64,000 nucleotides of DNA, taken from Microvirga lupini (GTDB lineage: Bacteria > Pseudomonadota > Alphaproteobacteria > Rhizobiales > Beijerinckiaceae). The stretch spans positions 310,001-374,000 of the forward strand of contig NZ_JACHWB010000001.1 of NCBI RefSeq assembly GCF_014191055.1, read 5' to 3'. Positions 3,568-35,128 of this stretch are shown here, piece after piece. The stretch's first letter is position 1, and each line of letters starts with the position of its first letter. Made by a program: the position numbers and the translations under genes. The notes below the pieces were generated by a model. The model was not told the origin of the DNA. It ran no database searches and worked only from the letters and a program-made list of their open reading frames with translations.

Positions 3568-3596
3568 CAGAAGACGGAGGCAGATCAGGCGTTCCT

Positions 3597-11461: not shown

Positions 11462-11469
11462 CGTGGAGT

Positions 11470-12282: not shown

Positions 12283-12284
12283 GG

Positions 12285-13990: not shown

Positions 13991-14002
13991 GTCCTCGCTC
14001 TC

Positions 14003-15085: not shown

Positions 15086-15489
15086 GATCTAATCTCCCTT
15101 GTGCGAGCGGAAGAATGCTTCTTTACAGGCAAGCACGTGCCGGTTGGCCGCAGACATCAAGCCTCGGCTCTCTCCTAAGCTTGGCTTCCAACGATTGATG
15201 AACGTTTGTTGTTCCGCTCGGTTCGCAATCCTTGTGACTCTTGTCTTCCTCATTCAGTGCCCAAAGTAATAAAGCAGCTCAGGAACAAAGATGATGTTGG
15301 TTAGTTTCCTAAGAGTAACCTTAAGCTTGAGATGGGCTTCGCAGGGCGGATAATATCCGAAGCTTGCGCGATATATTCTCAAATAGGAATGCATGCATTC
15401 CCTGCATCACATTTCCAAAGCGGAAATGGGATGATGCTTCTTGCTTTATCCATCGGTGCTTAGACCAGAAACCAATCTGGAGATACCTC
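15086..15489. promoter_or_regulatory. Divergent promoter region of the glycan cluster
   Basis: This 404-base gap drives the ino1 operon leftward and the epimerase/glycosyltransferase operon rightward, so promoters for both should lie here. It is AT-richer than its neighbours, and the only clear symmetric element is the palindrome at 15386-15401. An open frame enters from 15364 into the epimerase gene, but the ribosome site favours GTG 15490. No RNA gene or riboswitch was recognised. Confidence 0.65.
15386..15401. promoter_or_regulatory. Perfect 16-bp palindrome, candidate operator
   Basis: GGAATGCATGCATTCC is a perfect palindrome without a loop, suited to a dimeric DNA-binding protein. It lies 89 bases before the GTG of the first epimerase and about 300 bases before ino1. 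The AT-rich GATATATTCTC just before it could be part of a promoter. No regulator gene is adjacent. Confidence 0.5.
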
Positions 15490-17714: not shown

Positions 17715-17756
17715 GATTGTTCCTCGGGATCGGGTTGCTCATCGTCGAGAATTGCA

Positions 17757-18890
17757 ATGTCTGTGCCTGAAGCTGCAAAGAGCCTCCATGTTCTCATGAC
17801 GGCCGATGCGGTCGGCGGCGTCTGGCAATATGCTCTCGACCTTGCCCGCGGCCTGCGGACGCATGATGTGCGAACGACCATTGCGGTTCTAGGCCCTTGG
17901 CCCTCGGTGGATCAGCAGACGATGGCCGAAGCGGCTGGTGCGGAGCTTGTCGTAACAGGTCTACCGCTCGACTGGACCGCATCTCACCAAGGCGAGCTGA
18001 AAGAGGCGGGGCAGGCGATTGCTCGTCTTGCAGCGCAGATCCGTCCGGATCTCATTCATCTCAATACCCCGGCGCTGGCAGCCGATGCGTGTTTCAATGT
18101 TCCGGTTGTGGCAGCCTGCCATTCCTGCGTCGCCACTTGGTGGCAGGCAGTCAAAGGTGGGACGCTGCCGGAGGATTTCATCTGGCGCACGGACCTTGTG
18201 CGACGGGGCTATGCTTCTGCTGGCAAACTTCTTGCACCCACCCTCGCATTCGCTCAGGCAACATCTGAAGCCTATGATCTCACGCATCCTCCAGTCGTCG
18301 TGAGAAACGGAAGACGCGGCTCGCAGGGCAAGACGCATGCTCGCTCTGACGATTTCGTCTTCACAGCAGGGCGCCTCTGGGATGAGGGGAAGAATTTCGC
18401 CACCATCGATCGCATGGCAGAGCTTTTGCCGATTCAGGTTCTCGCCGCGGGCCCCTTGCAGGGACCAAATAGTGCCCAGATCGAAGCCCACCATGCCAAG
18501 TCCCTCGGCCGCTTGAGTGATGAGGATGTCGCCCGGCATCTCAGCAGGCAGCCAATCTTCGTATCGACTGCGTTCTATGAGCCGTTCGGGCTCGCCATAC
18601 TTGAGGCAGCCCAAGCCGGTTGCGCCCTTGTCCTTTCCGATATTCCGACCTTCCGTGAACTATGGGAAGGCGCTGCTCTGTTCGTGAATCCAAGGGATGA
18701 GAATGAGGCTGCCGATGCAGTCAAACGCCTAGTACAGGACATGGATGCCCGAGGGGTTCTAGGACGTGCCGCTAGGAAGCGGGCTGAAACCTATACCGTC
18801 GAGGCCATGAGTGAAGGCGTTCTGAGAGTCTATCAATCCGTGCTCGCAGGGGCATCCCGTCAATCTTCTCTTGAGGGCGCTGCCGCATGA
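17757..18890 (+). CDS. GT4-family glycosyltransferase
   Basis: A 377-residue retaining glycosyltransferase with a GT-B fold. The N-terminal glycine loop is DAVGGVWQYALDLARGL (residues 17-33). The donor-binding half contains FTAGRLWDEGKN near 201 and EPFGLAILEAAQAG near 272, the EX7E signature of GT4. There is no signal peptide, so it acts at the cytoplasmic membrane face or in the cytosol. It lies 42 bases after the epimerase gene and overlaps the next gene by four bases. It is the only clear GT4 member among the four consecutive transferases in this operon. Confidence 0.9.
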   Translation: MSVPEAAKSLHVLMTADAVGGVWQYALDLARGLRTHDVRTTIAVLGPWPSVDQQTMAEAAGAELVVTGLPLDWTASHQGELKEAGQAIARLAAQIRPDLIHLNTPALAADACFNVPVVAACHSCVATWWQAVKGGTLPEDFIWRTDLVRRGYASAGKLLAPTLAFAQATSEAYDLTHPPVVVRNGRRGSQGKTHARSDDFVFTAGRLWDEGKNFATIDRMAELLPIQVLAAGPLQGPNSAQIEAHHAKSLGRLSDEDVARHLSRQPIFVSTAFYEPFGLAILEAAQAGCALVLSDIPTFRELWEGAALFVNPRDENEAADAVKRLVQDMDARGVLGRAARKRAETYTVEAMSEGVLRVYQSVLAGASRQSSLEGAAA

Positions 18891-19999
18891 AGTTTGTCTA
18901 TTTCACCCATTCCCTTGCCTCATGCTGGAATCACGGCAACGCGCATTTCCTGCGCGGGGTCCTGCGCGATCTCGTCCATCGAGGGCATGAGGTGAGAGCC
19001 TATGAGCCCAAAGGCGCCTGGAGCCTTGAGAGCCTGTTGAAGGATCATGGTGAGGCAGGGCTCGATGCCTATCGCAGTCTTTATCCCGAGCTATCATCGA
19101 CTGTCTTCGATCCTGATCTCAATCTTGAGGAGGCTCTCTCCGATGCTGATGTGGTGATCGTCCACGAATGGAACGACCCTTGGCTTGTTGCCGCCATTGG
19201 AAAGGTGCGCAGGCACGGCGGCCGCTTCACGCTCCTCTTCCATGACACGCACCACCGGGCCGTGAGCGATCCGGAGGCGATCTGCCAGTTCGATCTGGAC
19301 GATTATGATGGTGTTCTGGCCTTCGGCGAAACGCTGGCGGAGGTCTATCGCCGCTGGGGCTGGGGTGAGCGCGTCTATGTCTGGCATGAGGCCGCAGATA
19401 CTCGCCTCTTTCATCCTCCCGCCGTAGAGGCCGAGCGGAAGGGTCTTGTCTGGATCGGTAACTGGGGTGATGACGAGCGCAGCGCCGAGTTGGAGGGCTT
19501 CCTGTTTCGCCCGGCGCGGACCGTTGGTCTGCCGCTGGAAATCTATGGCGTGCGCTATCCCGAGCACGCGCTTGAGACGCTCGCCCGCTATGGCGTGACC
19601 TATCGCGGCTGGCTGCCAAACGCCCGCGCGCCCGAAGTCTTCGCGCGGCATCTCGCGACCGTGCATGTGCCGCGCCGCTTCTATGTCGACCTTCTGCCAG
19701 GCATCCCCACCATCCGCGTGTTCGAAGCTCTGGCTTGCGGCATCCCGCTGATCTCCGCTCCGTGGAGTGACTCGGAGGGTCTGTTCGATTCGGGAGCGGA
19801 TTATCTCGTCGCGCGGGACGAAACCGAGATGGAGCACCATCTCAAGGCCGTCTGCAATGATGCCGACCTGCGCCGCTCACTGGTCGATAATGGCCTCAAC
19901 GCCATTCGTAACCGCCATTCCTGCGCCCATCGTGTCGACCAGCTTCTTGGCATCCTCGCCACTCACGGCGCCGGAGCGCCGATGGAGATGTCTGCATGA
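18887..19999 (+). CDS. CgeB-like glycosyltransferase, paralogue B
   Basis: A 370-residue predicted glycosyltransferase of the CgeB group. The N-terminus FTHSLASCWNHGNAHF shows the same S..S.WN.G.A loop as its neighbours, and the C-terminal donor site is RVFEALACGIPLISAPW near 277. It carries the DUF3880-like middle region with LFHDTHHRAV near 119. It is the most divergent of the four CgeB-like proteins in the cluster, suggesting a different acceptor. ATGA overlaps at both ends link it tightly to the genes on either side. Confidence 0.83.
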   Translation: MKFVYFTHSLASCWNHGNAHFLRGVLRDLVHRGHEVRAYEPKGAWSLESLLKDHGEAGLDAYRSLYPELSSTVFDPDLNLEEALSDADVVIVHEWNDPWLVAAIGKVRRHGGRFTLLFHDTHHRAVSDPEAICQFDLDDYDGVLAFGETLAEVYRRWGWGERVYVWHEAADTRLFHPPAVEAERKGLVWIGNWGDDERSAELEGFLFRPARTVGLPLEIYGVRYPEHALETLARYGVTYRGWLPNARAPEVFARHLATVHVPRRFYVDLLPGIPTIRVFEALACGIPLISAPWSDSEGLFDSGADYLVARDETEMEHHLKAVCNDADLRRSLVDNGLNAIRNRHSCAHRVDQLLGILATHGAGAPMEMSA

Positions 20000-21090
20000 A
20001 AATCGCCTTCTATGGCTCAAGCCTTCTCTCCTCCTACTGGAACGGCGCCGCCACCTATTATCGCGGTCTCTTGAGCGACCTCGCCCGTCGCGGCTACAGC
20101 ATTACTTTCTACGAGCCGGACGCTTTCGATCGCCAGAAGCATCGCGACATCGATCCGCCGGAATGGGCTCAGGTGAACGTCTATCCGGCGACCGAGGAGG
20201 CCATGCGCGGCGTCGTGGCAGAAGCGGCAAGGGCCGACGTGGTTGTGAAAGCCTCCGGCGTCGGCGTGTTCGACAATGAACTCCTCGAAGGCATTGTGGC
20301 GGCATCCCGTCCGGACGCTATCCGCATCTTCTGGGATGTGGATGCCCCGGCAACCCTGGCTGAACTGCGGGAAGGCCCGGATCATCCGCTCCACCGCACG
20401 ATGCCGGCGCTCGACTTGGTGCTCACCTATGGCGGAGGTCCGCCGGTCGTCGCGGCCTATGAGGGCTTCGGCGCCCGCCGCTGTATCCCAGTTTACAATG
20501 CCTGCGATCCGTCGACTCATCATCCGGTGCCGGCAGACGAGCGTTTCAAAGCGGATCTGTCCTTCCTCGGCAACCGCCTGCCGGACCGCGAGGCCCGCGT
20601 GGAGCAGTTTTTCCTGGAGCCCGCCGCCCGCTTGCCGAGCCGCAGCTTTCTCATCGGCGGCAATGGCTGGGAAACAAAAGGCATGCCGTCGAACGTGCGC
20701 CATATCGGCCATGTGTATACACGCGATCACAACGCCTTCAACACCAGCCCACTGGCAGTTCTCAATATCGCCCGCGACTCGATGGCCACGACCGGATACT
20801 CGCCCGCGACCCGTGTCTTCGAGGCGGCCGGGGCTGGCGCGTGCCTGATCACCGACGCGTGGGTCGGACTTGAGCTCTTTTTGAAGGAGGGTGAGGAAGT
20901 GCTCGTGGCCCGCGACGGCAAGGATGTGGCCGATCATGTCGAGGCTCTGACGCCAGAACGTGCCCGTGCCATCGGCGACGCCGCCCGAGCGCGGATCATG
21001 GCAGAGCACACCTATACCCGTCGCGGTGCGGAGGTGGATGCGATCCTGCGGGAGGAGGCATCCCTGAAGCGTGAAAGGAGCGTGGCGTGA
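19996..21090 (+). CDS. CgeB-like glycosyltransferase, paralogue C
   Basis: A 364-residue predicted glycosyltransferase. It has SSYWNGAATYYRGLL near residues 12-26, a WDVDAPATL segment near 114, and RVFEAAGAGACLITDAW near 274. The layout matches CgeB/DUF3880 proteins, with an N-terminal acceptor half and a C-terminal Glycos_transf_1-like half. The four-base overlaps with its neighbours support coordinated translation. The fold places it in the cytoplasm. The sugar added is unknown. Confidence 0.84.
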   Translation: MKIAFYGSSLLSSYWNGAATYYRGLLSDLARRGYSITFYEPDAFDRQKHRDIDPPEWAQVNVYPATEEAMRGVVAEAARADVVVKASGVGVFDNELLEGIVAASRPDAIRIFWDVDAPATLAELREGPDHPLHRTMPALDLVLTYGGGPPVVAAYEGFGARRCIPVYNACDPSTHHPVPADERFKADLSFLGNRLPDREARVEQFFLEPAARLPSRSFLIGGNGWETKGMPSNVRHIGHVYTRDHNAFNTSPLAVLNIARDSMATTGYSPATRVFEAAGAGACLITDAWVGLELFLKEGEEVLVARDGKDVADHVEALTPERARAIGDAARARIMAEHTYTRRGAEVDAILREEASLKRERSVA

Positions 21091-22196
21091 GCAAGCTTCG
21101 CGTCGTCGTTCTGGGCTTGAGCCTGTCCTCATCATGGGGGAACGGTCATGCGACGACCTTCCGCGCGCTGCTGAAAGCCTTTGCGGCACGGGGGCATGAC
21201 ATCATGTTCCTTGAGCGGGACGTGCCATGGTATGCTGCCCATCGCGATCTGCAGAGCCCGGACTTCTGCCGTCTTGAGTTTTATGCCAGCCTGGAGGATC
21301 TCAGACGCTATCGCGACGTGATTGCGAATGCCGATGCGGTGATCGTCGGCTCCTACGTGCCTGAGGGCGTCGCCGTTGGGCAATGGGTGCAGCAGACGAC
21401 AAATGGCGTGGTTGCGTTCTACGACATCGATACGCCTGTGACGCTCGCAAAGCTCGAACGAGGCGATTACGAATATCTCACACCCGCTCTCATCCGCGAT
21501 TACGACATCTATTTCTCCTTCACGGGCGGCCCCACCCTCGACTACCTCATGGAGCATTATGGCTCGCCGGCGGCGCGGGCGCTCTATTGTTCTGTCGATC
21601 CGAAGGCATACCCTGCGCTTGATCGCGAGAAGCGGTGGGACCTCAGCTATCTCGGGACCTACAGCCCTGACCGGCAGCCGACCCTTGAGCGGCTGCTGAT
21701 CGAGCCGGCACGTCGTGCGCCGCATCTGCGCTTCGTCGTGGCGGGACCCCAATACCCTGCCGACATCGAGTGGCCGTTCAATGTGGAGCGCATTGATCAC
21801 GTTCCTCCAGGCGATCATCCAGCGTTCTACGCGCAGAGCCGCTATACGCTCAATGTGACCCGGGCCGACATGATCCGCGCCGGCTACAGCCCGAGCGTCC
21901 GCCTGTTTGAGGCAGCTGCCTGCGGAACGCCGATCATATCCGATGTCTGGGACGGCATCGAGACTTTGCTCAAGCCGTGCCAGGATATCATTCTCGCGAA
22001 GAAACCGGATGATGTTCTCGACGTGGTCGGTACTTGGACCGAAGCCCGCCGAAAAGCCCTGGGTGTATCGGCGCAGGACCGGATTCTAGCCGAGCATACG
22101 GCGGCTCACCGGGCGGCTTCTTTAGAACGAGACCTTCTTGAAGCGATGGACCGTCCGCGCAGGGATTCCTCTCTCGCGTTGGAAGTCGAAGCCTGA
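21087..22196 (+). CDS. CgeB-like glycosyltransferase, paralogue D
   Basis: A 369-residue protein closely related to the minus-strand gene at 12285-13394: SSSWGNGHAT at the N-terminus, ERDVPWYAAHRD near 40, FYDIDTPVTLAKLE near 113, and RLFEAAACGTPIISD near 273. The equal length and collinear motifs suggest that one gene arose by duplication of the other before or during assembly of the two divergent operons. It is the last of the three CgeB-like genes in the rightward operon and starts four bases inside the preceding gene. Confidence 0.85.
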   Translation: MSKLRVVVLGLSLSSSWGNGHATTFRALLKAFAARGHDIMFLERDVPWYAAHRDLQSPDFCRLEFYASLEDLRRYRDVIANADAVIVGSYVPEGVAVGQWVQQTTNGVVAFYDIDTPVTLAKLERGDYEYLTPALIRDYDIYFSFTGGPTLDYLMEHYGSPAARALYCSVDPKAYPALDREKRWDLSYLGTYSPDRQPTLERLLIEPARRAPHLRFVVAGPQYPADIEWPFNVERIDHVPPGDHPAFYAQSRYTLNVTRADMIRAGYSPSVRLFEAAACGTPIISDVWDGIETLLKPCQDIILAKKPDDVLDVVGTWTEARRKALGVSAQDRILAEHTAAHRAASLERDLLEAMDRPRRDSSLALEVEA

Positions 22197-22307
22197 TTGT
22201 GTGAATTGATTCTGAGGCCGGCGTTGAACCAACGCCAAGCTTCAACGTTGGACCAGACAATGTTTGTACCTCGGGACCCTCTTGTCGGTCTGAGAAGGAG
22301 CGTTCGC

Positions 22308-23342
22308 ATGAAGAATGGCAAAGACAAGCACGTCCTTGTTGCGGGCGGTGCTGGATTTCTAGGATCCCACCTCTGCGATGCTCTTCTCAGCGAAGGCGCT
22401 CACGTGGTTGCTCTCGACAATTTCCAAACAGGACGGAAGCAAAATCTGCGCCATTTGGAGCGGGAGCCCCGCTTTGATCTTGTCGACAGCGATATCATCA
22501 AGCCATTGCCGGCTCGCCTGCGCTCCAAGCGATTCAAGTTCGATGAGGTTTATAATCTCGCTTGTGCGGCCTCGCCGCCCCATTACCAAGCCGATCCCGA
22601 GCACACGATGCTGACGAGCGTCATCGGAACGCACAACCTTCTGACATTTGCAGAGAGCATCGAAGCGCGATTCTTCCTCGCATCAACGAGCGAGATCTAT
22701 GGCGATCCCGAAGTTCATCCGCAGACCGAGAGCTATTGGGGAAATGTCAATCCCACAGGGCCTAGGGCTTGCTACGATGAAGGCAAACGCGCCGCCGAAA
22801 CCCTGACCTTCGACTTCGACCGCTCCGGCCGCGCCGACGTCCGGGTTGCGCGGATCTTCAACACCTACGGACCTCGCATGCGCGCCGACGACGGTCGCGT
22901 CGTATCCAATGTGATCTGCCAGGCCCTGGCTGGCGAGGACATTACAATCTATGGGGATGGAAGCCAGACGCGCTCCTTCTGCTACGTGTCGGACCTTGTC
23001 GACGGCTTCCTTCGTCTCATGGCCTATCAGGGTCTTTTTCCGGGCGCGGTCAATCTGGGCAATCCAGTTGAACTGACGGTTGGCGATCTTGCCGAAAGGG
23101 TCCTGGCGATGACGGGGTCTTCGTCCCGCATTGTTGCTCGGCCTCTTCCGGTCGACGATCCACGTCGCCGCCGTCCAGATATCACGCGCGCCAAGCAGCT
23201 CCTCGGCTGGTCCCCTCGGACGTCGCTTGAGGCCGGTTTAAAGGCCACAATCGCGTGGTTCTCCGATGAGAGGGCTCACGACGGCAAGTCCAGCCGCATA
23301 TCGCCTGCACAGGAGGGTGCGGTCACGATGGGGCAGGCCTAG
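22308..23342 (+). CDS. UDP-glucuronate decarboxylase-like NAD-dependent SDR
   Basis: A 344-residue extended SDR with strong resemblance to UDP-xylose synthase/UDP-glucuronate decarboxylase. [10 protein letters not shown] lies at residues 12-21, [11 protein letters not shown] near 82, [14 protein letters not shown] near 122, and the catalytic YDEGKR near 152, all typical of that enzyme group. It would supply UDP-xylose or a related pentose donor. ATG 22308 is chosen because GAAGGAG lies eight bases before it; an upstream frame from 22197 has no such site. It ends the rightward operon, 32 bases before a terminator. Confidence 0.88.
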
Positions 23343-24953: not shown

Positions 24954-26132
24954 ATGGCGGCAGCGGCGCGCTGGATCACAGGCATCCTCATCGTCGTAGC
25001 GGCTCTGCTTGCGATCCACGCAGAGTTTTTCCGCATCATCCATGAGCCCGGCTTGTGGGACTTTGGGTCTTTTGTGGCGTCCGGACGCGCAGCGAGCGAA
25101 GGGCTCAATCCCTATGGGATCTACCCGCTGACCCTTCGCGTGGAACTGCCAGGGTTCGAGGCGTGGAACCCAAATCTCAACCCGCCGATCTCGGCGCTGC
25201 TGTTCCAGGCCTTCGATGTGGCCGATCCCTATGTGACATACCAGGTCTGGCGTTGGATCTCGGTGGTTGTCTATGCGGCGGCGATCCTCCTGCTCGTCAG
25301 CCGTCTCGGAAATCGTGCTGAGTCACTGGTCATCGCCGTGTGGGCTTTCGCGCTCGCGGGATTCTGGGACACGCTCTTTCTTGGGCAGATCTATCTGCCG
25401 CTGGTCCTTGCCGGCATTGCGGCATGGCTGCTGCTTGAGCGCGGAGCAGGAATCCGGGCAGGCCTTCTCATCGGCTTGGTCGTGGCCATGAAGCCGAACT
25501 TTCTGGTCTGGCCTGTGCTTCTCCTGCTGTCCGGGCATCATCGCTCTGCGCTTGTCGCCTTCGTCACAGCCGGCGCCATCGGCCTGATCCCGCTGCTGAT
25601 CTATGGGCCTGATGTTTACCGGCAATGGTTTGAACTCGTCGCCTCTGACGGAAACCGGGCTCTTTTTCTTACAAATGGTTCCTTCGCCGGGATCGCAGCG
25701 CGGGCTGGTGTCCCGTCTTTCGGCCTAGTGCTCGGCTTGATTCTCTTGGCAGCGCTGACGGCTTGGGCTTTGTGGCGGCGGCCCGATGTTCTCACAGTCA
25801 GCGCCATGGCGCTTCTGGCCTCAATCCTGGCTTCGCCGCTCGGCTGGATCCACTACACGCTGTTCCTGCTTCCCGTGATCGTGCGACACTGGAAGAACCC
25901 AGCCATGCGGGTTGTCGCCCTGCTGCTCATCGTGCCGGTACCCTTCATCATCGATCAGCTGGGCAAGCCGGCTTGGGTCCAGCTGACGATAGGGTCGGTC
26001 TATGGCTGGGCACTGGTGCTGTGTCTCGCCATTCTCATGATTGATGAGTGGGGGCGTATCCGGCAGGGTGGGCAGCGGAAACCAACTGCAATATCAATGC
26101 CTGAGCGCCAATACAGGCCAAGCGCTTCCTAA
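24954..26132 (+). CDS. GT87-like polytopic glycosyltransferase (DUF2029 family)
   Basis: A 392-residue integral membrane protein with roughly ten hydrophobic helices. It resembles the DUF2029/GT87 family, which uses polyprenyl-phospho-mannose or similar donors on the periplasmic side. The first periplasmic loop contains WDFGSFVASGRAASEG and NPYGIYP, the usual site of the catalytic aspartate in GT-C enzymes, followed by NPNLNPPISALLF. GAGGAG lies about eight bases before ATG 24954. It is convergent with the three-paralogue operon, leaving 12 bases between stops. It may use the lipid-linked sugar made by that operon. Confidence 0.83.
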   Translation: MAAAARWITGILIVVAALLAIHAEFFRIIHEPGLWDFGSFVASGRAASEGLNPYGIYPLTLRVELPGFEAWNPNLNPPISALLFQAFDVADPYVTYQVWRWISVVVYAAAILLLVSRLGNRAESLVIAVWAFALAGFWDTLFLGQIYLPLVLAGIAAWLLLERGAGIRAGLLIGLVVAMKPNFLVWPVLLLLSGHHRSALVAFVTAGAIGLIPLLIYGPDVYRQWFELVASDGNRALFLTNGSFAGIAARAGVPSFGLVLGLILLAALTAWALWRRPDVLTVSAMALLASILASPLGWIHYTLFLLPVIVRHWKNPAMRVVALLLIVPVPFIIDQLGKPAWVQLTIGSVYGWALVLCLAILMIDEWGRIRQGGQRKPTAISMPERQYRPSAS

Positions 26133-26144
26133 GGATGTGAGCGT

Positions 26145-27767
26145 TCAACCGCCACTCGAAGGAAAAATCTCCGGCTCTTCCTGCTGGGATTCTGGCGAAC
26201 GGCTGACGGTTTCCGCAGGTTCGCGAAGGACATAGACTTTCCAGTCTTTCGTTTCCTCCGCAAGGTCATAATGGTCGGACAGATAGGCTGCATAGATCTG
26301 ACGAAGGCCTTCAGCCGTTGTGAATTCAACCGGCCATTTCGGTGCCATCACGACGCGGACATCCTGAAAGAGCGTTTCAGGAGGGAGATGGTGATGCTCG
26401 TTGATCGTGCGTCCCCAATGGTGCCACGTAGTGTCACCCCGCGGCGGCGCAAGACCGAGGCCGGCCGAGAACGGGCCTACGAAGTCGAGAACGTGGACCC
26501 GCCCCGCTTTTTCGCCGAGCGCTGAAAGGGCACGGGCGCCATCACCGAGACTCTCGAGATAGCGGGAGAAGACGGGGTAATTGTCCTCGGTCCACAACTG
26601 CACGAGCCTGACCCGATCAAACTTCGGCAAGGGCACCGCTTGGCCCTGGCTCGTGCTGGCCAGAGCGGCATGGAGGCCAAGGGTTGCGGCATGATGGATG
26701 CTGCCGGGCAGAACGAAGGCGAAAAACAGCAGCTGAGTGCCTGCGGCCAGAGCCGGAGCCCTTCTGCTTGCCCATGAAGGCGCTGACCTGGCCAGGAGTT
26801 CTGCCGCCACGGCCGCTCCACCGACAAGGGTCACAATGCCGGAGACCTGGAAGTTCTGCATGATCAGCATGAAGCCGGAGCCGGCGCAGAACCCATAAAA
26901 CAGAAAATCGCGGATGCTGCGCGTGCGCCAGAGCGCGAGAGCAGCAAACAGAATGAAAATGGTATAGTCGGCCAGATTCCTGAGAATCAAGGAGATGAGT
27001 TCATCAAGAGACTTGAAGCTGCCACTGACACCGCCTGCGACAAGAAGGTCGTTGATGTGGGCTTCAGTGGCGCCCCAAAAGGATTCGACCAGCAGCCCTC
27101 CTGACAGGATCATGCCGAGCGCCGCCAAGGCCCATCGCCGCTGCTGCAAATCGAGCAGCATCAGGATGAGGAAGCCCAATGCCACCAACCCGTAGCTGAG
27201 CTTCATGTACAGCATGAGCAGGGTCAGCGAGGCGGCGCAGACGGCATCGAGCGCGCTTTGAAAAGAGCGGCGGTGGATCGGTCGGAGATAGAGGACCAGA
27301 AGGAAGCCTAGAGCCGCCCAGCCGACCCGGTTGTAGAACATGCCGAATGAGAGGCCGGCGATGCTCTCACCGAGATTGATGGGAACGGCTGCAACCAGGA
27401 TCAGGAAGATGGAAAGAGGCAGGGCAATGGCGGGTCTCAGGCGCGAGCTGACAATGTGGGCGGCAGCCAAGGCCATCATCATGACCAGAAGGGCCATACC
27501 CACGGGCATGGCTCCCCCCATATGGCCAGAGATCCAGTAGCCCAAGGCTGGCACGTAATAGACGAGGGGCCCGAGCGCCGTGTGGAAGTCACGGTTCGGG
27601 ACCTGTCCTTCGCTCACACGATGGACGCCATCAAGGAAGATAAACAGGTCATTCACGTAGCGCGTCGTGACCGTCTGGCCTGGCAGCGCAAGCAACAGGG
27701 CGCAGATTGCCGCCACAGCAATCACGAGGGCCACCACGGATGGCGGACGTATCTTCGAAACATTCAT
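26145..27767 (-). CDS. Putative GT-C glycosyltransferase, tandem paralogue 3
   Basis: A 540-residue polytopic membrane protein, last of three tandem paralogues. About eleven hydrophobic helices are followed by a soluble C-terminal part of about 150 residues. The first outer loop reads NDLFIFLDGVHR then GQVPNRDFHTALGPL, a layout typical of GT-C lipid-phospho-sugar-dependent transferases, where acidic residues in this loop are catalytic. The downstream block SFGMFYNRVGWAALG is shared by all three. I cannot assign a named family; a pentosyltransferase role is inferred from the upstream pathway genes. It overlaps the preceding gene by four bases. Confidence 0.75.
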   Translation of the reverse strand: MNVSKIRPPSVVALVIAVAAICALLLALPGQTVTTRYVNDLFIFLDGVHRVSEGQVPNRDFHTALGPLVYYVPALGYWISGHMGGAMPVGMALLVMMMALAAAHIVSSRLRPAIALPLSIFLILVAAVPINLGESIAGLSFGMFYNRVGWAALGFLLVLYLRPIHRRSFQSALDAVCAASLTLLMLYMKLSYGLVALGFLILMLLDLQQRRWALAALGMILSGGLLVESFWGATEAHINDLLVAGGVSGSFKSLDELISLILRNLADYTIFILFAALALWRTRSIRDFLFYGFCAGSGFMLIMQNFQVSGIVTLVGGAAVAAELLARSAPSWASRRAPALAAGTQLLFFAFVLPGSIHHAATLGLHAALASTSQGQAVPLPKFDRVRLVQLWTEDNYPVFSRYLESLGDGARALSALGEKAGRVHVLDFVGPFSAGLGLAPPRGDTTWHHWGRTINEHHHLPPETLFQDVRVVMAPKWPVEFTTAEGLRQIYAAYLSDHYDLAEETKDWKVYVLREPAETVSRSPESQQEEPEIFPSSGG

Positions 27768-29386
27768 GGTGACAATCCATCCCCGGCTCCAACACGGGAT
27801 GGTTGTGCATGTTCCAAAGGCTGTCCAAGGCCGCTGAGCATTCCTGTTTCGCGGCGCTTATAGACGGTCCAGAGTCCGGTATGACGGATGGGATCATATG
27901 CCTTTTGGATGTAAGCTCCGTAGAGCTCGCGAAGCGGGATACCGTTGACGCCGGCCTTTGGTACCATCAGCACGTCGACACCCCCAAACAGTTGCTCAGG
28001 AGGCGGGTGGTGGACATCATTGATGTTGCGCCCCCAGTGAAGCCATGCGTAGTCCCCGCGAGATGGCGGCAGGCCCAGGCCTGCAGTAAAAGGATTGGCA
28101 AAGTCCAGAACCGAGACGTTCTTGGGCTTCACCGGAAGTTCGCTCAGGAGGCGCGCGCCTTCACGGATGCTCATGAGATAATCGTCCATGAAGCTGCGGT
28201 CGCCTGGCACCCAAAGCTTAGTCAGTCTCAGCTCTCCGTAGCGAGGCAAGCCGAACGGCTCACCCACGCGTGCGGCGGCAACGACGGTATGAACGCCAAG
28301 CGCTATGAAGCATTGGACGGTTGTCGGCAGAAGAAGCGCGATCAGCAGAAGTGGAGCCCCTCGGGCCAGGAGTCCATTCCCTTTTGGATCCGCGATCTGT
28401 GGGGAGCGCAGCAGGATTTCCGTTGCGACGGCTGCTCCCGCGAACAGTGTGATGATTCCCCAGGGCTGCGAGTTCTGGCTCTGGATGATCAGGCCGGGAC
28501 CTGCGCAAATTCCGAAGAATAGAAGATCGCGCAAGCTGCGACTTTGCCAAAGCACCAGAACCGCGAAGATGGCGAGAAGCACGTAGTCGGCGAGATGGCG
28601 GAGGAAGGCCAGCGACAGATCGACGATGCCGCGGGTTCCGCTCACCCGGCCTGCGAGCGCGAGATCCTCAAGATGGGCGATCGTGGATTGCCAGACGGCT
28701 TCGATAAGAATGGCTGAGAGGACAAGAAGTCCGAGAGCCCACAGCACCCACCGACGCTGGCGGGCGTCGAACAGCATGAAGCCGAGAAAGGCGAGGGCAA
28801 CAAGCCCATAGGTCGCCTTGGTATAGATCATCACCAGACTCAGAGAAGCGGCGCAGAGAGCATCAAGCAGGTTCTGGCCGCTACGGGACTGCTCGGGCTG
28901 GAGATACATCACGACAAGCAGGCTGAGGGCTGCCCATCCGATCCGGTTGTAGAACATTGCGAAAGACAATGACGCGATGCTTTCGCCCAGATTCGTTGGT
29001 ACGGCGACGATCAGGAGCAGGAACAAGCCATAGGGGATCCCTACCATTGGCCGGAGGCGTGAACCGAGGATGTGGATCATCGGCAGGGCAAGCCCGATCG
29101 TCACGGCCGCCATGGCTGTGGGCATGGCACCACCCATGCTGCCGGAGATCCAATATCCAAGAGCCGGCACATAGAAAGACAGTGGGCCCAAGGCTGTATG
29201 AAAATCACGGTTGGGAACCTGACCGAACACGATCCGGTGTGCGCCATCGAGGAAGATGAACAGATCGTTGAGATAGGCCGTTGTGACGGTCTGGCCCGGC
29301 AAGGCAAGCAGCAACCCGAAGATGGCCGCGGCACAGAGAAGTGTGCCGGCTATCCAGGGTATCTGTCGTCCCGGAGGAGCCATCAT
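27764..29386 (-). CDS. Putative GT-C glycosyltransferase, tandem paralogue 2
   Basis: A 540-residue membrane protein collinear with its two neighbours. It keeps LALPGQTVTT near residue 26, NDLFIFLDGAHR near 40, GQVPNRDFHTALGP near 55, and SFAMFYNRIGWAAL near 143. The C-terminal soluble part has the shared pattern AGLGLPPSRGDYAW followed by a tryptophan- and histidine-rich segment. Four-base ATGA overlaps tie it to both flanking paralogues. The predicted topology places the conserved acidic loop and C-terminal domain on the periplasmic side, as in arabinosyl- and mannosyltransferases of the GT-C class. The substrate is unknown. Confidence 0.75.
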   Translation of the reverse strand: MMAPPGRQIPWIAGTLLCAAAIFGLLLALPGQTVTTAYLNDLFIFLDGAHRIVFGQVPNRDFHTALGPLSFYVPALGYWISGSMGGAMPTAMAAVTIGLALPMIHILGSRLRPMVGIPYGLFLLLIVAVPTNLGESIASLSFAMFYNRIGWAALSLLVVMYLQPEQSRSGQNLLDALCAASLSLVMIYTKATYGLVALAFLGFMLFDARQRRWVLWALGLLVLSAILIEAVWQSTIAHLEDLALAGRVSGTRGIVDLSLAFLRHLADYVLLAIFAVLVLWQSRSLRDLLFFGICAGPGLIIQSQNSQPWGIITLFAGAAVATEILLRSPQIADPKGNGLLARGAPLLLIALLLPTTVQCFIALGVHTVVAAARVGEPFGLPRYGELRLTKLWVPGDRSFMDDYLMSIREGARLLSELPVKPKNVSVLDFANPFTAGLGLPPSRGDYAWLHWGRNINDVHHPPPEQLFGGVDVLMVPKAGVNGIPLRELYGAYIQKAYDPIRHTGLWTVYKRRETGMLSGLGQPLEHAQPSRVGAGDGLSP

Positions 29387-31002
29387 GAGCGGCCATCCCG
29401 CTGCAGGGCGGCTTCAGGGCGTGATGGAAGACGCCGCCGATACAATTTCCAATGCTGCGTCTCCTCGGCCATGGCGAAATGCGTTGCGATGTAGGGACCA
29501 TAGATGGCTTGCAGCTGTGGCAGCCATCCCTTCGCAGCATCTAGACTATCTGCGGGTTTCGGCTCCATCACGAACTGCACATCGGCCAGCAGCGTCTCAG
29601 CCGGGATATAGCTCGTGTTGTTGAGGGTGCGATCCCATTGCAGCCATGACGCATCGCCCTTTGCCGGAGGAGCGTTGAGCGCTATCGAGAAAGCATTCCC
29701 TAAATCGAGCACAAAGATCCGGTCCGGCTTTGGATCGAGCCTGGATAAAGCGTCGATCCCGTCATGGAGAACCTCTTGATAGGCTGTGGCTGCGTCGTAG
29801 TCGTTCCATGTCCAGAGGTTTGCTACCCGAACCTGCTGCAATCCAGGGAGAGGGACGGCATTGCCTGCCCTGACACTCGCTGCCGCCGTGTGAAGGCTAA
29901 GTGCTATAAGGCAATGGATGCTGGTGGGCAGAACGACGGCCAAGAAAAGCAGTTTCGCGCCTGCAGCCGTCGACCAGCCTCCTGGATCGATAGTTCGTTC
30001 CGGTCGGTGGCTCTCAAATCTAAGGATCGTCTCGGCGGCAACAGCTGCCGCACCATGAAGCATGATGATGCCCCACGCCTGGAAGTTCTGATTGATGATC
30101 AGAAACCCTGCTATGGCGCAGAAGGCATAGAAAAGAAGATCCCGAACGCTGCGGGTGCGGTACATGGCCATTCCGGCAAACAGACCAAGCAGAACATAAT
30201 CGGTAAGGTTGACGAGGATGTGATCCGCGATCTGCCCCCAGGTGCCGCGCAACCCGCCTCCCACATCAAAGGCCAGGCGCAGATCGGCCAGATAGGCGAG
30301 GGAGGATTGCCAAATGAGCTCGATGATCAGCACAGCGAGGATCGTGATACCCAGTGCGCTGGCAGACCAACGGCGCTGCTCCCGGTCCGAGAGCATGAAC
30401 AGAAGGAAGGCAAGGGCCACAACACCGTAGCTGAGCTTGGTGTAGAGCATCAGCAGTGTCAGAGCTGTTGCGCAGGCCGTGTCCAGAATCGTTTGGCGAC
30501 GGCCAATGCTCAATGGGCGGAGATACATGATAAGGAGCATGCCCAGGGCAGCCCAGCCGATCCGGTTGTAGAACTTGGCAAAAGACAGGGAAGTGACGCC
30601 CTCACCGAGATTGACGGGCACCGCCAGGATCAGGAGCAGGAACAGGCCGTAGGGAAGAGCAATGAATGGATGCAGCCGCGAGCCGAGGATGTGCGTCATC
30701 GGCATGGCGAGCAGAAGCGTGATCAGGGCCATGGCGGTGGGCATGGTTCCGCCGAGACTTCCCGACAGAGCATAACCTGCAGCCGAGAGATAATAGGCAA
30801 AGGGACCTAACGGCGTGTGAAAGTCCTGGTTCGGCACTTGGCCTGCGGCGATCCGGTAAGCACCGTCCAGAATGACGAAGAGGTCATTCAGATATCGGGT
30901 CGTAACGGTTTGTCCTGGAAGAGCAAGCAGCAGGGCGAGGAGGAATGCGGCAGCCAGCAGGATCGGCCCCACCTTCATGGGGCGCTCAGTCCAGAGCCGC
31001 AT
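29383..31002 (-). CDS. Putative GT-C glycosyltransferase, tandem paralogue 1
   Basis: A 539-residue membrane protein, first of the three tandem paralogues and directly after the DprE2-like reductase gene (25-base gap). It has LALPGQTVTTRYLND near residue 27, LDGAYRIAAGQVPNQDFHT near 45-63, and SFAKFYNRIGWAALG near 145. In the outer loop it has NQDFH where its paralogues have NRDFH. ATG 31002 is supported by GGAGGAAG seven bases upstream. Position and topology match the place that AftA and the Emb proteins take in mycobacterial arabinan loci, but overall sequence similarity to those is not evident by eye. Confidence 0.76.
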   Translation of the reverse strand: MRLWTERPMKVGPILLAAAFLLALLLALPGQTVTTRYLNDLFVILDGAYRIAAGQVPNQDFHTPLGPFAYYLSAAGYALSGSLGGTMPTAMALITLLLAMPMTHILGSRLHPFIALPYGLFLLLILAVPVNLGEGVTSLSFAKFYNRIGWAALGMLLIMYLRPLSIGRRQTILDTACATALTLLMLYTKLSYGVVALAFLLFMLSDREQRRWSASALGITILAVLIIELIWQSSLAYLADLRLAFDVGGGLRGTWGQIADHILVNLTDYVLLGLFAGMAMYRTRSVRDLLFYAFCAIAGFLIINQNFQAWGIIMLHGAAAVAAETILRFESHRPERTIDPGGWSTAAGAKLLFLAVVLPTSIHCLIALSLHTAAASVRAGNAVPLPGLQQVRVANLWTWNDYDAATAYQEVLHDGIDALSRLDPKPDRIFVLDLGNAFSIALNAPPAKGDASWLQWDRTLNNTSYIPAETLLADVQFVMEPKPADSLDAAKGWLPQLQAIYGPYIATHFAMAEETQHWKLYRRRLPSRPEAALQRDGRS

Positions 31003-31027
31003 GACTTCTTCCTCCGTGGGTCAGGGG

Positions 31028-31771
31028 TTAGAGGCGCAAGCGCTTGAAAAACCGTTCGGGAATGCTGCCGACGGCCATCATGACGGGACGCCAGATCGGG
31101 CGCACATAGATCACGTCGCGGCCGCTCCTCTCGGCCGCTGTGAAGATGGCGCGCCCGACCTCGCTGGGCTCTGCGGTGAGGATGGGAGGCAGCTTCATGC
31201 CGGCGGTCATCTGCGTGCGCACGAAACCGGGTTTGACCGTCACCACCCGCAGCCCCTTGGGAGCCAAGCGGTTGCGCAGGCCCGACAGGAACGCCGTGAA
31301 ACCGGCCTTGGCCGCGCCGTAGAGGTAGTTCGATCCGCGGCCGCGATCGCCTGCCACGGAACTTACGCCGACGAGAGTGCCGGATCCACGCGCCAGGAAA
31401 CGCTCCGCGAAATACCCGAGCAGGAGCGCCGGGCCCTCGAAATTCGTACGCAGCACGAGAGATGCATGGGCCATATCGGTCTGCCCCTTCGCCTGATCGC
31501 CCAGTTCGCCAACAACACACACCACTGTATCCGGCAGCGTGGACAGGCTGTTGGCAAAGCTCTCGAAGGCGCCGCTCTCAAGAATGTCGAGCCGGTGCAC
31601 CGTCACCTCGGCGCCGGTCCGGGCACGGATGTCGTCGGCGTTGCGACGGGCTTCCTCATCATTCCGGGCGGCGAGCTGCACCTGCCAGCCAGCCTGAGCA
31701 TAGTGAAGTGCCGTGGCGCGCCCGATATCGGAGGTGCCGCCGACGAGGAGAAGGGTTTTCGAAGGTTCCAT
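31028..31771 (-). CDS. dprE2: SDR reductase, DprE2-like (decaprenylphosphoryl-2-keto-pentose reductase)
   Basis: A 247-residue classical short-chain dehydrogenase. The cofactor motif is GGTSDIGRATA (residues 11-21). Catalytic residues are the serine in GVSSVAG near 136 and the YxxxK in YGAAKAG near 150. The name rests on context: it follows a DprE1-like oxidase with one base of overlap, as in the mycobacterial pair that epimerises polyprenyl-phospho-ribose to polyprenyl-phospho-arabinose. The family-level SDR call is secure; the exact substrate is inferred. A hydrophobic C-terminus (MMAVGSIPERFFKRL) fits membrane association. Confidence 0.83.
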   Translation of the reverse strand: MEPSKTLLLVGGTSDIGRATALHYAQAGWQVQLAARNDEEARRNADDIRARTGAEVTVHRLDILESGAFESFANSLSTLPDTVVCVVGELGDQAKGQTDMAHASLVLRTNFEGPALLLGYFAERFLARGSGTLVGVSSVAGDRGRGSNYLYGAAKAGFTAFLSGLRNRLAPKGLRVVTVKPGFVRTQMTAGMKLPPILTAEPSEVGRAIFTAAERSGRDVIYVRPIWRPVMMAVGSIPERFFKRLRL

Positions 31772-33105
31772 CAGATGCCCAGCCGTGCCGACAGACGCGA
31801 AGAGATACGACCGGTTGCACCGATGCTCCGTCGCAGGTCGCGGAAGCGGAACAATTCAGGATAACCGGCCTCGAAGGTTGCAGGCGATTGCCTTGCGTCC
31901 TTGGCTAGATAGAGCCGTCCTCTGGCTTCGACCACCAAACGGTCAAGCTCCTCGAGCAGGGGGAAGACCTCGTCGCTGACCGGCAGGTCTAGGGTCAGGG
32001 TGAAGCCTTCGAACGGGAACGAGAGAAGGCCGTGACTCGGGCCGAGCTGCTTAAGCACCGCCAGGAAGGATGCGTTGCCATGCTTGGCGATGCGCTCGAG
32101 GATGCCGCCCAGGACAGCTTGAGCCTTCGCTGTAGGGATGACGCATTGATACTGCAGGAACCCGCGCCGCCCATAGATGCGGTTCCAGTTGCCGATCCCA
32201 TCGAGGGGGAAGAAATAGGGATTCCAGTGAACCAGGAACGGATAGCCGGATTTCACGACTCCTGCCCGGAAGTAGAGCTCATTGAAGGCAGAAACCGACA
32301 AGCGGTTGAGCGTGAAGGAGGGCAGGTCGAGCGGGATGCTCAGGCGGCCGAGCTTGGATGCGGGATAAGGTGAGGATCCGGGGCGAAGGGCGTCCAAATC
32401 CCTTTGGGTGGCATGTTCTGCCGCAAAGATCAGCGAACGACCAAGCGAAGCGCCACGGGCGAGGCAATCAACCCAAGCCACCGAGTAGGTTGCGTTGCTT
32501 GTCTCCTCGAGAGCCCGGATGGCGCTGTCGAGATTTTGGGCGACGGTGGTCGTCTGGCGCATCCACCCGGTCTCGATGCGCCGAAGATGGAAGGTGGCGT
32601 CCAGGATGGTGCCCGTGAGCCCCATTCCTCCAATCGTGGCGGACAGGAGTTCGGGATTCTCGTCACGCGAGCAGGTGACGATGCTTCCATCCGGCAGAGC
32701 CAGGGTCAGGCTTTCCACATGGTCGCCAAATCCGCCGTCCCGGTGGTGGTTCTTGCCGTGCACGTCCGAGGCGATCATGCCGCCGATGGTGACGAACTTG
32801 GTGCCCGGCACAACGGGAGGGAAGAGGCCCCTCGGGACCACGATATCGAGGAGATCGGAGAGCAGGACGCCCGCTTCCACCTGAATACGGCCTGTTGCCT
32901 GATCAAAGGCCCGGATACGATCAAGTCCCCGGGCCATGAGGGTGACCTGCTCTCCGATGGCGGCATCACCATAGGCGCGTCCATTGCCGCGGGCCACCAG
33001 CCCGGTCCGGGAGGCCATCAGGGAAGGGAAGGCTTTGGGGGACGTGGGGCAGAGGGTCTCTGACGGATGGCGGGGGTAGCGCCCCCAACCGGCGAGTTCC
33101 GTCAT
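31771..33105 (-). CDS. dprE1: FAD-dependent oxidase, DprE1-like (polyprenylphosphoryl-pentose 2-oxidase)
   Basis: A 444-residue VAO-type flavoprotein. The FAD-binding segments are RGNGRAYGDAA near residues 39-49 and PGTKFVTIGGMIASDVHGKNHH near 101-122, almost identical in pattern to mycobacterial DprE1 as I remember it (GGAIACDIHGKNHH). Further matches are GGMGLTGTI, WNRIYGRRGFLQYQ, LKQLGP and RLYLAKDAR. The position of the benzothiazinone-target cysteine appears to be threonine (FTLTLDLP in place of NICVDFP). It should oxidise C2 of a lipid-linked ribose before DprE2 reduces it. It overlaps GtrA by four bases and DprE2 by one. Confidence 0.88.
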   Translation of the reverse strand: MTELAGWGRYPRHPSETLCPTSPKAFPSLMASRTGLVARGNGRAYGDAAIGEQVTLMARGLDRIRAFDQATGRIQVEAGVLLSDLLDIVVPRGLFPPVVPGTKFVTIGGMIASDVHGKNHHRDGGFGDHVESLTLALPDGSIVTCSRDENPELLSATIGGMGLTGTILDATFHLRRIETGWMRQTTTVAQNLDSAIRALEETSNATYSVAWVDCLARGASLGRSLIFAAEHATQRDLDALRPGSSPYPASKLGRLSIPLDLPSFTLNRLSVSAFNELYFRAGVVKSGYPFLVHWNPYFFPLDGIGNWNRIYGRRGFLQYQCVIPTAKAQAVLGGILERIAKHGNASFLAVLKQLGPSHGLLSFPFEGFTLTLDLPVSDEVFPLLEELDRLVVEARGRLYLAKDARQSPATFEAGYPELFRFRDLRRSIGATGRISSRLSARLGI

Positions 33106-33497
33106 GCCTGCCGCTCCCTGAACACAAAGGTCCGATCCAGAATGAACTTGGTGGCATACCCGATGGCAAGTCCTATCACCGCACCGGTATACTTTGCCAG
33201 ATCCGTCTGCCAGATCATCCAGAAGGCCACCTCGAAGCCCCAGAATACCAGGGTGGTCAGGACGCTGAAGGCACCATAAAGGGTGATCTTCTGGACCTCC
33301 TGCCGGTGGCCGTCATAGTCATCGTCGAACACCCACTTCTTGTCGAGCACGTATTTCAGGATGAAACCGGTGGCCGTTCCCATCAGGATGGACAGAACCA
33401 AAGGTGCTGCCGGCGCAATCCGGATGACGACTTCCTGGGTGACCAGATTGACGAGTGTCGCGATGACGGCGAACAGAACATAGCGGACAAACATCAT
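33102..33497 (-). CDS. GtrA family membrane protein
   Basis: A 131-residue protein with four predicted membrane helices, matching the GtrA family. It starts MMFVRYVLFAVIATLVNL and has the family-typical FILKYVLDKKWVF between helices 2 and 3 and YATKFILDRTFVF at the end. GtrA proteins take part in moving or using polyprenyl-linked sugars. Rv3789, the mycobacterial GtrA protein next to dprE1, was proposed as a lipid-arabinose flippase and later as an accessory factor. The same position here supports a role with the lipid-linked pentose. Its stop overlaps the dprE1 start. Confidence 0.88.
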   Translation of the reverse strand: MMFVRYVLFAVIATLVNLVTQEVVIRIAPAAPLVLSILMGTATGFILKYVLDKKWVFDDDYDGHRQEVQKITLYGAFSVLTTLVFWGFEVAFWMIWQTDLAKYTGAVIGLAIGYATKFILDRTFVFRERQA

Positions 33498-33577
33498 CGG
33501 CCCGACTCCCTTGTAAGGGCCTGAAGAAGGGTCCGAGAAGGCTCTGTGCCCTCGATCGATTGCCGAAGAGACATGGC

Positions 33578-35125
33578 TTAGACGGCAGCTACGATCAGGG
33601 CGGCGGCAGCCGCCACCGTCAGAAGGCTGACCCGGTCCTTGAGGGCGAATACCACGGGATCGTCATCCATGATCCGGCGCCCGGCAAGCATCAGCGCCCG
33701 TGCAATCCAGAACATGAGGAGCGGGCCGACGAGCCAGAGGAGCTGAGGGCGCGAATAAAGCTCGTTGACGCTGTCGCTCGAGATGTAGAGCGCCAGGATC
33801 GTCACGGCATTGAAGCCCGCCGCCGCAGCCAGGGCGGCCACGATGTCCAGGTCGCTGTTCTTGTAGTCACGGCTGGTCGGGTCCGGGAGGTTGGCGTCAC
33901 GACGGGCCGCCAGTTCCACGTAACGCTTGATGAGGGCGAGGGACATGAAGATCATCATGCTGAAGGCGATCAGCCATTCCGAAACGGCAACGGATACCGC
34001 AACAGCGCCCCCAATCACTCGGACGGAGTAAAGACCAGCCAGGGTGATCACGTCGACCACCATCATGCGCTTGAGCACGAAGGAATAGGCAGTCGTGAGG
34101 GCGAAGTAGCCCAGCAGCACGCCTAGGAACGACAGCGACACAGTGGACCCGACAGCCAGCGCCCCGAGGAAGAGAACCGGTATGGCCATCACGCCATGCA
34201 TCAGGGGAATGGCACCGCTCGGCAGGGGGCGCTTGCTCTTGCTGCGATGCCCCCGATCGTCCTGCAGGTCCACCAGATCGTTGAGGATGTAGATGCTCGA
34301 GGCACAGAGCGAGAAGGCAATGAAGGCCAGAACGGCTTGGGTGATGGCTTCCAGCGTGAACAGATGTGCCGCCAGGAGCGGGAGGAAGATGAGGGCGTTC
34401 TTGGCGTATTGATGCACACGCAGCATCCTGGCCCAGGTCCGCCACGTCGGGCGCGTATGGGTCAGATGCTCGGCGTCAGGGCACTGACGGGCTAGCTTTC
34501 TCCTCACCCCGGCAGGGGTACGGATGGCGATCGATTGGGCAGCCTTCTCCCAGACGGGAAGATCGGCGGCGTCATTGCCGACATAGTCGAAACCGCGGTC
34601 GCCGAAGGCTTCGACGAGCTGCTGAGCCTTCCTGCGGCCGGCCAGATTCGTGGTCTCATCGGACGCGAACCATCCGGTAAAAAGGCCAAGGTGGTCGGCT
34701 ATGCTCTCCACCAGACGCTGATGGCTGGCGGATGCCAGGTAAACAGGACGCCCTGCCGCTCTGGCTTGGCGGATCAGGGACAGAACCTCAGGATCATACG
34801 GCAACGTTCCCGGATTGAAATCGACAGGTTCGGACAGGCGGTGCTTCAGGGCGGCCTTGCCGCGGGAGAGAGCCATCAGCATGTCGAGGATGGATTGTGG
34901 CCGGCGACCCAATTCCGAGAAGGCGGTTTCGATCAGCAGGTCGGACGCGATCAGGGTGCCGTCGAGATCGACGACGAGAGGCCGAGGCGCCTCTCGGTCG
35001 GGCGTCTCGATCTCAAGCGTTGTCCAATGCGCCTCATCCCTCTCATAGCGGCGCTCGGAGCGCTCATGGGGAAGGGGGGGGCGGGCACGATGGGGCAAAG
35101 TCTGCGGTTTGAGGTCAGATCGCAC
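33578..35125 (-). CDS. HAD phosphatase-UbiA prenyltransferase fusion (phosphoribosyl polyprenyl-phosphate synthase-like)
   Basis: A 515-residue two-domain protein. Residues 50-215 form a HAD-type hydrolase: DLDGTL near 53, a serine in YLASASH near 135, and GNDAADLP near 180. Residues 225-515 form a UbiA-type membrane prenyltransferase with about eight helices and the metal motif NDLVDLQDDR near 281, followed by KSKRPLPSG, the pattern of the decaprenyl-phosphate phosphoribosyltransferase subgroup (Rv3806c). It would make a lipid-linked phosphoribose, and the HAD part could remove the 5-phosphate. It starts at GTG 35125 or TTG 35128, behind GGGGAG, and heads the leftward operon. Confidence 0.86.
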   Translation of the reverse strand: MRSDLKPQTLPHRARPPLPHERSERRYERDEAHWTTLEIETPDREAPRPLVVDLDGTLIASDLLIETAFSELGRRPQSILDMLMALSRGKAALKHRLSEPVDFNPGTLPYDPEVLSLIRQARAAGRPVYLASASHQRLVESIADHLGLFTGWFASDETTNLAGRRKAQQLVEAFGDRGFDYVGNDAADLPVWEKAAQSIAIRTPAGVRRKLARQCPDAEHLTHTRPTWRTWARMLRVHQYAKNALIFLPLLAAHLFTLEAITQAVLAFIAFSLCASSIYILNDLVDLQDDRGHRSKSKRPLPSGAIPLMHGVMAIPVLFLGALAVGSTVSLSFLGVLLGYFALTTAYSFVLKRMMVVDVITLAGLYSVRVIGGAVAVSVAVSEWLIAFSMMIFMSLALIKRYVELAARRDANLPDPTSRDYKNSDLDIVAALAAAAGFNAVTILALYISSDSVNELYSRPQLLWLVGPLLMFWIARALMLAGRRIMDDDPVVFALKDRVSLLTVAAAAALIVAAV

Positions 35126-35128
35126 CAA

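Follow-up and report, generated by a model that had tools for sequence, protein, structure and literature searches.

Predicted lipid-linked D-arabinose synthesis and three GT-C-like transferase paralogues encoded by one operon in Microvirga lupini

The genes described here lie in a 64,000-nucleotide stretch of Microvirga lupini DNA (the window; positions 310001-374000 of contig NZ_JACHWB010000001.1, in a genome of 4.9 Mb), whose nearest named loci are those of Microvirga. Within this window, seven closely spaced genes occupy the minus strand at 26145-35128 and, in order of transcription, encode: a protein with UbiA and HAD domains (33578-35128, starting at TTG 35128 or alternatively at GTG 35125); a GtrA-family membrane protein (33102-33497); a homologue of the oxidase DprE1 (31771-33105); a homologue of DprE2, a short-chain dehydrogenase/reductase (SDR; 31028-31771); and three polytopic proteins resembling GT-C glycosyltransferases, assigned to paralogue slot 3 (29383-31002, the first of the three to be transcribed), slot 2 (27764-29386) and slot 1 (26145-27767). 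Four of the junctions are overlaps of 1-4 bases and the other two are gaps of only 25 and 80 bases, which supports reading the genes as a single operon. The original prediction had described a leftward seven-gene operon in this order. The minus strand does carry all seven, and Pfam and NCBIfam confirm the UbiA, GtrA, DprE1-like and DprE2-like members. The neighbourhood comparison that it proposed finds the same gene order in all nine relatives compared (six with three polytopic genes, three with one), so the arrangement is not a product of chance. Three features lay beyond that description: the N-terminal HAD domain of the UbiA protein, the paralogy of the polytopic proteins, and a GT87-family gene that faces the operon on the plus strand (24954-26132).

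The UbiA/HAD protein is predicted to be a UbiA-type polyprenyl-phosphate phosphoribosyltransferase with an N-terminal HAD phosphatase domain. It exceeds the cut-off of the UbiA family PRK08238 (658.2 bits; cut-off 351), with HAD at residues 52-192 and UbiA at residues 260-480. The best solved match of its C-terminal half (234-510) is decaprenylphosphoryl-5-phosphoribose (DPPR) synthase (8j8j, E 3.7e-22), and the motifs NDxxDxxxDxxH, KRYxEL and the HAD motif DxDGT are visible by eye in the translation. Its scores fall under the PRK12324 equivalog cut-offs for decaprenyl-phosphate phosphoribosyltransferase (141.9 for 234, 128.4 for 207 and 88.7 for 474). According to the available text of a Citrobacter study, ORF15, which has the same HAD-then-UbiA architecture, produces farnesyl-P-ribose from phosphoribosyl pyrophosphate (PRPP) (PMC11127046). 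The features of the ORF15 type, a HAD domain with its nucleophile and a UbiA domain with NDxxD, are both found here, as judged from domains and motifs. The GtrA-family protein, a predicted lipid-linked sugar flippase, matches PF04138 (E 3.9e-13) and NF037976 (165 bits; cut-off 50).

The third protein, a predicted flavin adenine dinucleotide (FAD) oxidase of polyprenyl-P-ribose, carries a FAD_binding_4 domain and matches the DprE1 model NF053785 at E 2.4e-119. Its best solved matches are DprE1 chains (4aut, E 1.8e-78), and the first match from any other family follows at 9.3e-10. Active-site roles and residue numbers are taken here to be those of the Mycobacterium tuberculosis enzyme. The window oxidase keeps Y60, H132, K134, W230, Q334, Q336 and K418; in a comparison of nine positions across 51 rows, residues 60, 132, 134, 230, 336 and 418 are identical in all 51 and 334 in 50. 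A tree of 54 rows, built by a quick method with 20 of the 55 local copies included, places the window oxidase in a starred group whose 22 rows include 19 from GT-C loci; the copies from L087 and L100 lie outside it. In the same tree 4aut joins the ingroup of 51 rows and stays clear of three further FAD oxidases encoded by the window's own genome; long branches meet there, and the DprE1 assignment accordingly rests mainly on the search scores. The predicted SDR reductase has DprE2 as its best solved match (21gq_C, E 3.3e-29; next 9.9e-17) and passes PRK07102, an SDR model with no named function (349.4 bits; cut-off 267).

The three polytopic proteins, of 539-540 residues, are paralogues with about 50% identity, slot 3 being 48% identical to both others. 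None has a significant family in Pfam, NCBIfam or PHROGs, and a profile search of solved chains matched no GT-C chain, Emb and Aft included. The AlphaFold model of the slot-1 protein (predicted local distance difference test, pLDDT, 94) adopts a GT-C glycosyltransferase fold by structure comparison; it lies nearest to ArnT and AftA and also matches AftB, AftD and Emb. Here, D40, a candidate catalytic aspartate, opens helix 38-52, which follows the first long helix. According to the AftB study (PMC12041299), the tip of juxtamembrane helix 1 carries an essential aspartate in every GT-CA enzyme. The facing GT87-family protein (PF09594, E 5.7e-27), a candidate fourth transferase, has no solved relative by sequence. 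The kinship of GT87 to AftC is presumed, and no text among the literature matches listed joined the two names.

Several claims of the original prediction can be read against these results. It had likened the UbiA-type transferase to Rv3806c and the oxidase and SDR to DprE1 and DprE2; the solved matches bear this out, and the tree keeps the oxidase with 4aut, subject to its long branches. Its guess that the polytopic proteins are GT-C enzymes agrees with the high-confidence model. The cassette matches likewise support its proposal of a lipid-linked pentose, with D-arabinose the probable sugar.

Co-occurrence ties the transferases to the donor cassette. Among 48 Microvirga genomes searched at 1e-40, the GT-C family is present in 19 and a DprE1 homologue in 23; all 19 GT-C genomes have DprE1, and four genomes have DprE1 alone (Fisher p 7.7e-10, kinship ignored). 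In a sample of 385 genomes from the class, 47 have a DprE1 homologue at 1e-60 and three, the window's own included, have the GT-C family at 1e-10; the latter count may be low because few candidates per genome were scored. A scan of named genomes, keyed on two conserved peptides, recovered 67 GT-C loci; because of those peptides the set leans to close relatives. With gene presence scored by tblastn thresholds, UbiA is found at 58 of the 67, DprE2 at 56, DprE1 at 55, GtrA at 55 and GT87 at 31. All four cassette genes are found at 54, in Microvirga, kin of Rhizobium, Devosia, Paracoccus, roseobacters and Parasulfuritortus. The 12 loci lacking DprE1 comprise three on contigs of at most 7.3 kb, five with a homologue elsewhere in the genome, three with none at 1e-20, and L101, where there is a 135-base match only. 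In the five genomes with a homologue elsewhere (L052, L088, L089, L090 and L093), that homologue is more distant; it comes with a complete cassette in three of them and with an incomplete one in the other two. Ribose transfer at these loci was considered and dropped; with a DprE1 homologue in all five genomes, a ribose-using variant is unsupported.

The paralogues appear to be old. From 132 GT-C reading frames, 86 rows, with the three window proteins among them, went into an alignment and a tree made by a quick method. In it the slot-1 group has 22 rows (support 98, starred), the slot-3 clade 19 (100, starred) and the slot-2 group 25 (88, unstarred); each contains Microvirga, Devosia, Paracoccus and Rhizobium-type sequences, and two slot-1-like rows, from L061 and L094, fall outside the slot-1 group. 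Roseobacter sequences, present as single copies, group apart from these (13 rows; 99, starred); by best hit, slot 1 is the subtype closest to the roseobacter copy. Three copies are present at 12 of 18 Microvirga loci and one copy at five, the remaining locus being cut by a contig end. The triplet is claimed to predate its present spread, whether by descent or by transfer; since the root is a midpoint, the claim is confined to age relative to that spread. Outside Microvirga, slot-3 paralogues often lack D40, H62, Y145 and W448, which are conserved elsewhere, and a non-catalytic or altered partner is possible there.

Roseobacter neighbourhoods bear on the product. At 14 of 15 roseobacter-type loci (L071, L075, L078, L079 and L083-L092), a block of genes for DUF4185, TMEM260-like and AsmA proteins adjoins the GT-C gene, Pfam names having been taken from one or two copies of each and the rest assigned by similarity. 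DUF4185 corresponds to GH183, for which the available portions of two papers describe tested endo-D-arabinanases (PMC10115798, PMC10509167). The L088 protein, the one copy tested, aligns with endo-alpha-D-arabinanase 8hhv (E 2.7e-61) and contains two Asp-containing motifs, read here as the putative catalytic aspartates. A GH183 homologue adjoining these loci thus supports a D-arabinan product in roseobacters.

Taken together, these data suggest the following route. The UbiA domain would transfer 5-phosphoribose from PRPP to polyprenyl phosphate, and the fused HAD domain would remove the 5-phosphate from polyprenyl-P-5-phosphoribose. Oxidation at C2 by the DprE1 homologue and reduction by the DprE2 homologue would then convert lipid-linked ribose to D-arabinose. 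GtrA would carry the polyprenyl-phospho-beta-D-arabinofuranose across the membrane, where the three GT-C enzymes, probably joined by the GT87 protein encoded opposite, would move D-arabinofuranose (D-Araf) onto a periplasmic or surface glycan. Judged by homology and motifs, it is very probable that the four cassette proteins make up the full route from PRPP to polyprenyl-phospho-D-arabinofuranose. That the operon makes this beta-linked donor and that the GT-C enzymes use it outside the cytoplasm is probable, and the identity of the GT-C proteins as D-Araf transferases is held with similar confidence; each paralogue likely makes its own linkage. The basis is gene content, homology, conserved active-site residues, the fold of the slot-1 model, co-occurrence and gene order; from these we infer what each enzyme does, that GtrA flips the lipid, how the paralogues share the work and what kind of acceptor they serve. 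The best reading is that the paralogues are an independently evolved set of D-arabinofuranosyltransferases acting on a periplasmic or surface glycan. A more ambitious version is possible but doubtful: that Alphaproteobacteria build true D-arabinan, with GT-C enzymes whose three-way division of labour arose on its own, parallel to that of mycobacterial Emb and Aft, and that in roseobacters it is built on a periplasmic glucan and trimmed by GH183.

Several observations weigh against this assignment of donor and product. The window's DprE1 homologue scores 399.5 bits on NF053785 and misses the equivalog cut-off of 500, which none of the 385 class genomes reaches, all 47 matches lying below it; the DprE2 homologue scores 182.2 bits on NF053786, where the cut-off is 250. 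The proteins are therefore named homologues rather than equivalogs. DprE1 position 314 is Phe in the window protein and varies over the 51 rows (Phe 40, Leu 10, Tyr 1), as does position 387, Thr in the window protein (Ala 45, Thr 5, Cys 1). Structural match scores of the slot-1 model are moderate, and the fold alone does not reveal the donor. D40 is conserved in the aligned GT-C rows except in eight of the 19 slot-3 rows, all from other genera. The two other GT-C copies among the class genomes (G137 and G257) are distant, with no DprE1 listed in either at 1e-60, and three distant copies from the named-genome scan (L097 and L098, on one record, and L099; 26-34% identical) come from genomes without DprE1 at 1e-20. 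Lastly, the window's genome gave no match to GH183 or GH172 (DUF4185, DUF2961), a weak negative given that the control genomes were silent too. Among the distant relatives as a whole, the genomes of L097, L098, L099, L161 and L162 gave no DprE1 at the thresholds applied; the wider GT-C family therefore need not use arabinose. The G257 copy (G257:C58:96747-98294) has one internal TGA.

The strongest alternative accepts lipid-linked D-arabinose but has the GT-C proteins decorate O-antigen or capsule with single residues as side chains, in the manner of the Citrobacter three-component systems, Microvirga having no arabinan polymer. This stands at a little under an even chance. The enzyme logic and the HAD-UbiA fusion are as in Citrobacter ORF15, in the text of that study available (PMC11127046), and the five Microvirga loci with one GT-C gene would suit it, as would the weak GH183/GH172 negative. 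On the other hand, GH183 beside the roseobacter loci indicates a polymer there, and three old paralogues together with GT87 suggest several linkages.

For transfer to a glycan in Microvirga, one possible but doubtful acceptor is the product of the adjacent divergent cluster at 9762-23342, which encodes inositol-1-phosphate synthase, a histidine phosphatase, a nucleotidyltransferase, a methyltransferase, PF13524-type glycosyltransferases and epimerases. Its marker glycosyltransferase (21087-22196; 31 of 48 Microvirga genomes) occurs in 15/15 genomes with slot 1 as opposed to 16/32 others (p 5.9e-4, kinship uncorrected, one genome set aside) and is missing from three slot-2-only genomes. Consistent with a link, the glycosyltransferase and epimerase arm also persists in Rhizobium halophilum and Paracoccus benzoatiresistens (L172, L173). 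However, 16 Microvirga genomes have the marker but no GT-C gene, Jannaschia carries GT-C without the marker, and synteny alone could account for part of the association, which is also uncorrected for shared ancestry. The cluster is thus a lead, not proof. To the right of the operon (42524-63514) lie genes for a CheA-like kinase, CheZ and the flagellar proteins FlgI, FliP, FliF and MotB. A flagellin acceptor was set aside: the EAL-GGDEF gene between operon and flagellar genes is present in only nine of 18 Microvirga loci, some on short contigs.

For roseobacters, a rather unlikely proposal is that the acceptor is an osmoregulated periplasmic glucan from which GH183 trims arabinan. MdoG/OpgG lies in the flank of 13 of the 15 roseobacter-type loci, and in L090 it is followed by a GT2-type synthase, presumably OpgH-like. 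At nine DprE1-homologue loci without GT-C (L163-L171; three of them roseobacter-type), no DUF4185, TMEM260-like, AsmA or MdoG gene was seen within 15-20 kb, which favours the proposal in the case of GH183 and MdoG. Against it, the link is one of adjacency, on the opposite strand at most loci, and among the literature matches listed no title or opening abstract concerned arabinosylated osmoregulated periplasmic glucan; nor does it bear on Microvirga. Finally, a lipid donor that keeps its ribose or ends up with some other pentose, the DprE1 and DprE2 homologues acting on a different lipid or sugar, is very unlikely: the scores under the curated cut-offs and the use of ribofuranose and xylofuranose donors by the founding GT136 enzyme, in the available text (PMC11127046), would allow it, but the conserved DprE1 active site, the best solved matches to DprE1 and DprE2, and the GH183 link in roseobacters argue against it.

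Elsewhere in the window, genes for PrkA, DUF444 and SpoVR are consecutive at 1603-6445, and a 919-residue protein with a C-terminal heparinase II/III-like domain is encoded at 47172-49931, with chemotaxis genes to one side and sensor-kinase genes to the other. Scanning the window for tRNAs and Rfam families gave no match.

The pathway is already published outside mycobacteria, and the donor cassette itself is known; a claim of novelty for it was rejected, with DprE1 homologues in 47/385 class genomes. As far as the searches reach, the new part is the transferase family, which is apparently undescribed, together with its old triplet and the GH183 link. Among the literature matches listed on alphaproteobacterial arabinosyltransferases, DprE1/DprE2, rhizobial D-Araf and Microvirga arabinose, no title or opening abstract describes the family; most subscription papers and all supplements were beyond reach, so its absence from print is not established. 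The analysis brings to light an old family, as yet without annotation, whose members are probable D-arabinofuranosyltransferases from bacteria other than mycobacteria and, in roseobacters, a likely degrading enzyme. With these, the chemistry of D-arabinan can be tested beyond mycobacteria and arabinosyltransferases can be studied in compact models; a further question is which alphaproteobacterial envelope glycan bears D-arabinose.

Four known systems offer comparisons. Arabinosylation of the type IV pilin of Pseudomonas aeruginosa is associated with TfpW. For this system, the available text of the Citrobacter study proposes that a DPPR synthase orthologue makes the undecaprenyl-phosphate-Araf donor (PMC11127046). 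The acceptor there is a pilin, whereas a Pfam scan of 39 window proteins finds no pilin family. A second comparison is with Azorhizobium noeCHOP, which acts in Nod-factor arabinosylation: this too is an alphaproteobacterial gene set, and in the portion of the paper available noeC, noeH and noeO resemble mycobacterial D-arabinose precursor genes (PMC2443382). It differs in that the 39 scanned proteins include no nod operon, a methyltransferase (10688-11461) giving a weak NodS match. The three-component system of Citrobacter youngae O1/O2 (ORF15, GT136) likewise combines an N-terminal HAD and UbiA fusion, a lipid-linked pentofuranose and a GT-C enzyme, and its authors report, in the text available, DprE1/E2 homologues in candidate Araf systems (PMC11127046). 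It has a MATE flippase and one GT-C enzyme where Microvirga has GtrA and three GT-C paralogues.

The original prediction had called the locus mycobacterial-style. This holds by homology for the donor cassette but does not extend, by sequence, to the transferases, which are about 540 residues long where the Emb and AftD chains compared have 1035-1312 and which show no sequence match to the solved chains, or to the phosphatase, which is a HAD domain fused to UbiA as in ORF15 in place of Rv3807c. DprE1 Cys387 is also replaced, by Thr. What the two systems share is the same ordered chemistry (in mycobacteria Rv3806c, Rv3807c, DprE1/E2 and Rv3789, with AftA-D and EmbA-C), a homologous synthase, oxidase and reductase, and several GT-C transferases, the predicted slot-1 fold being nearest to AftA among arabinosyltransferases.

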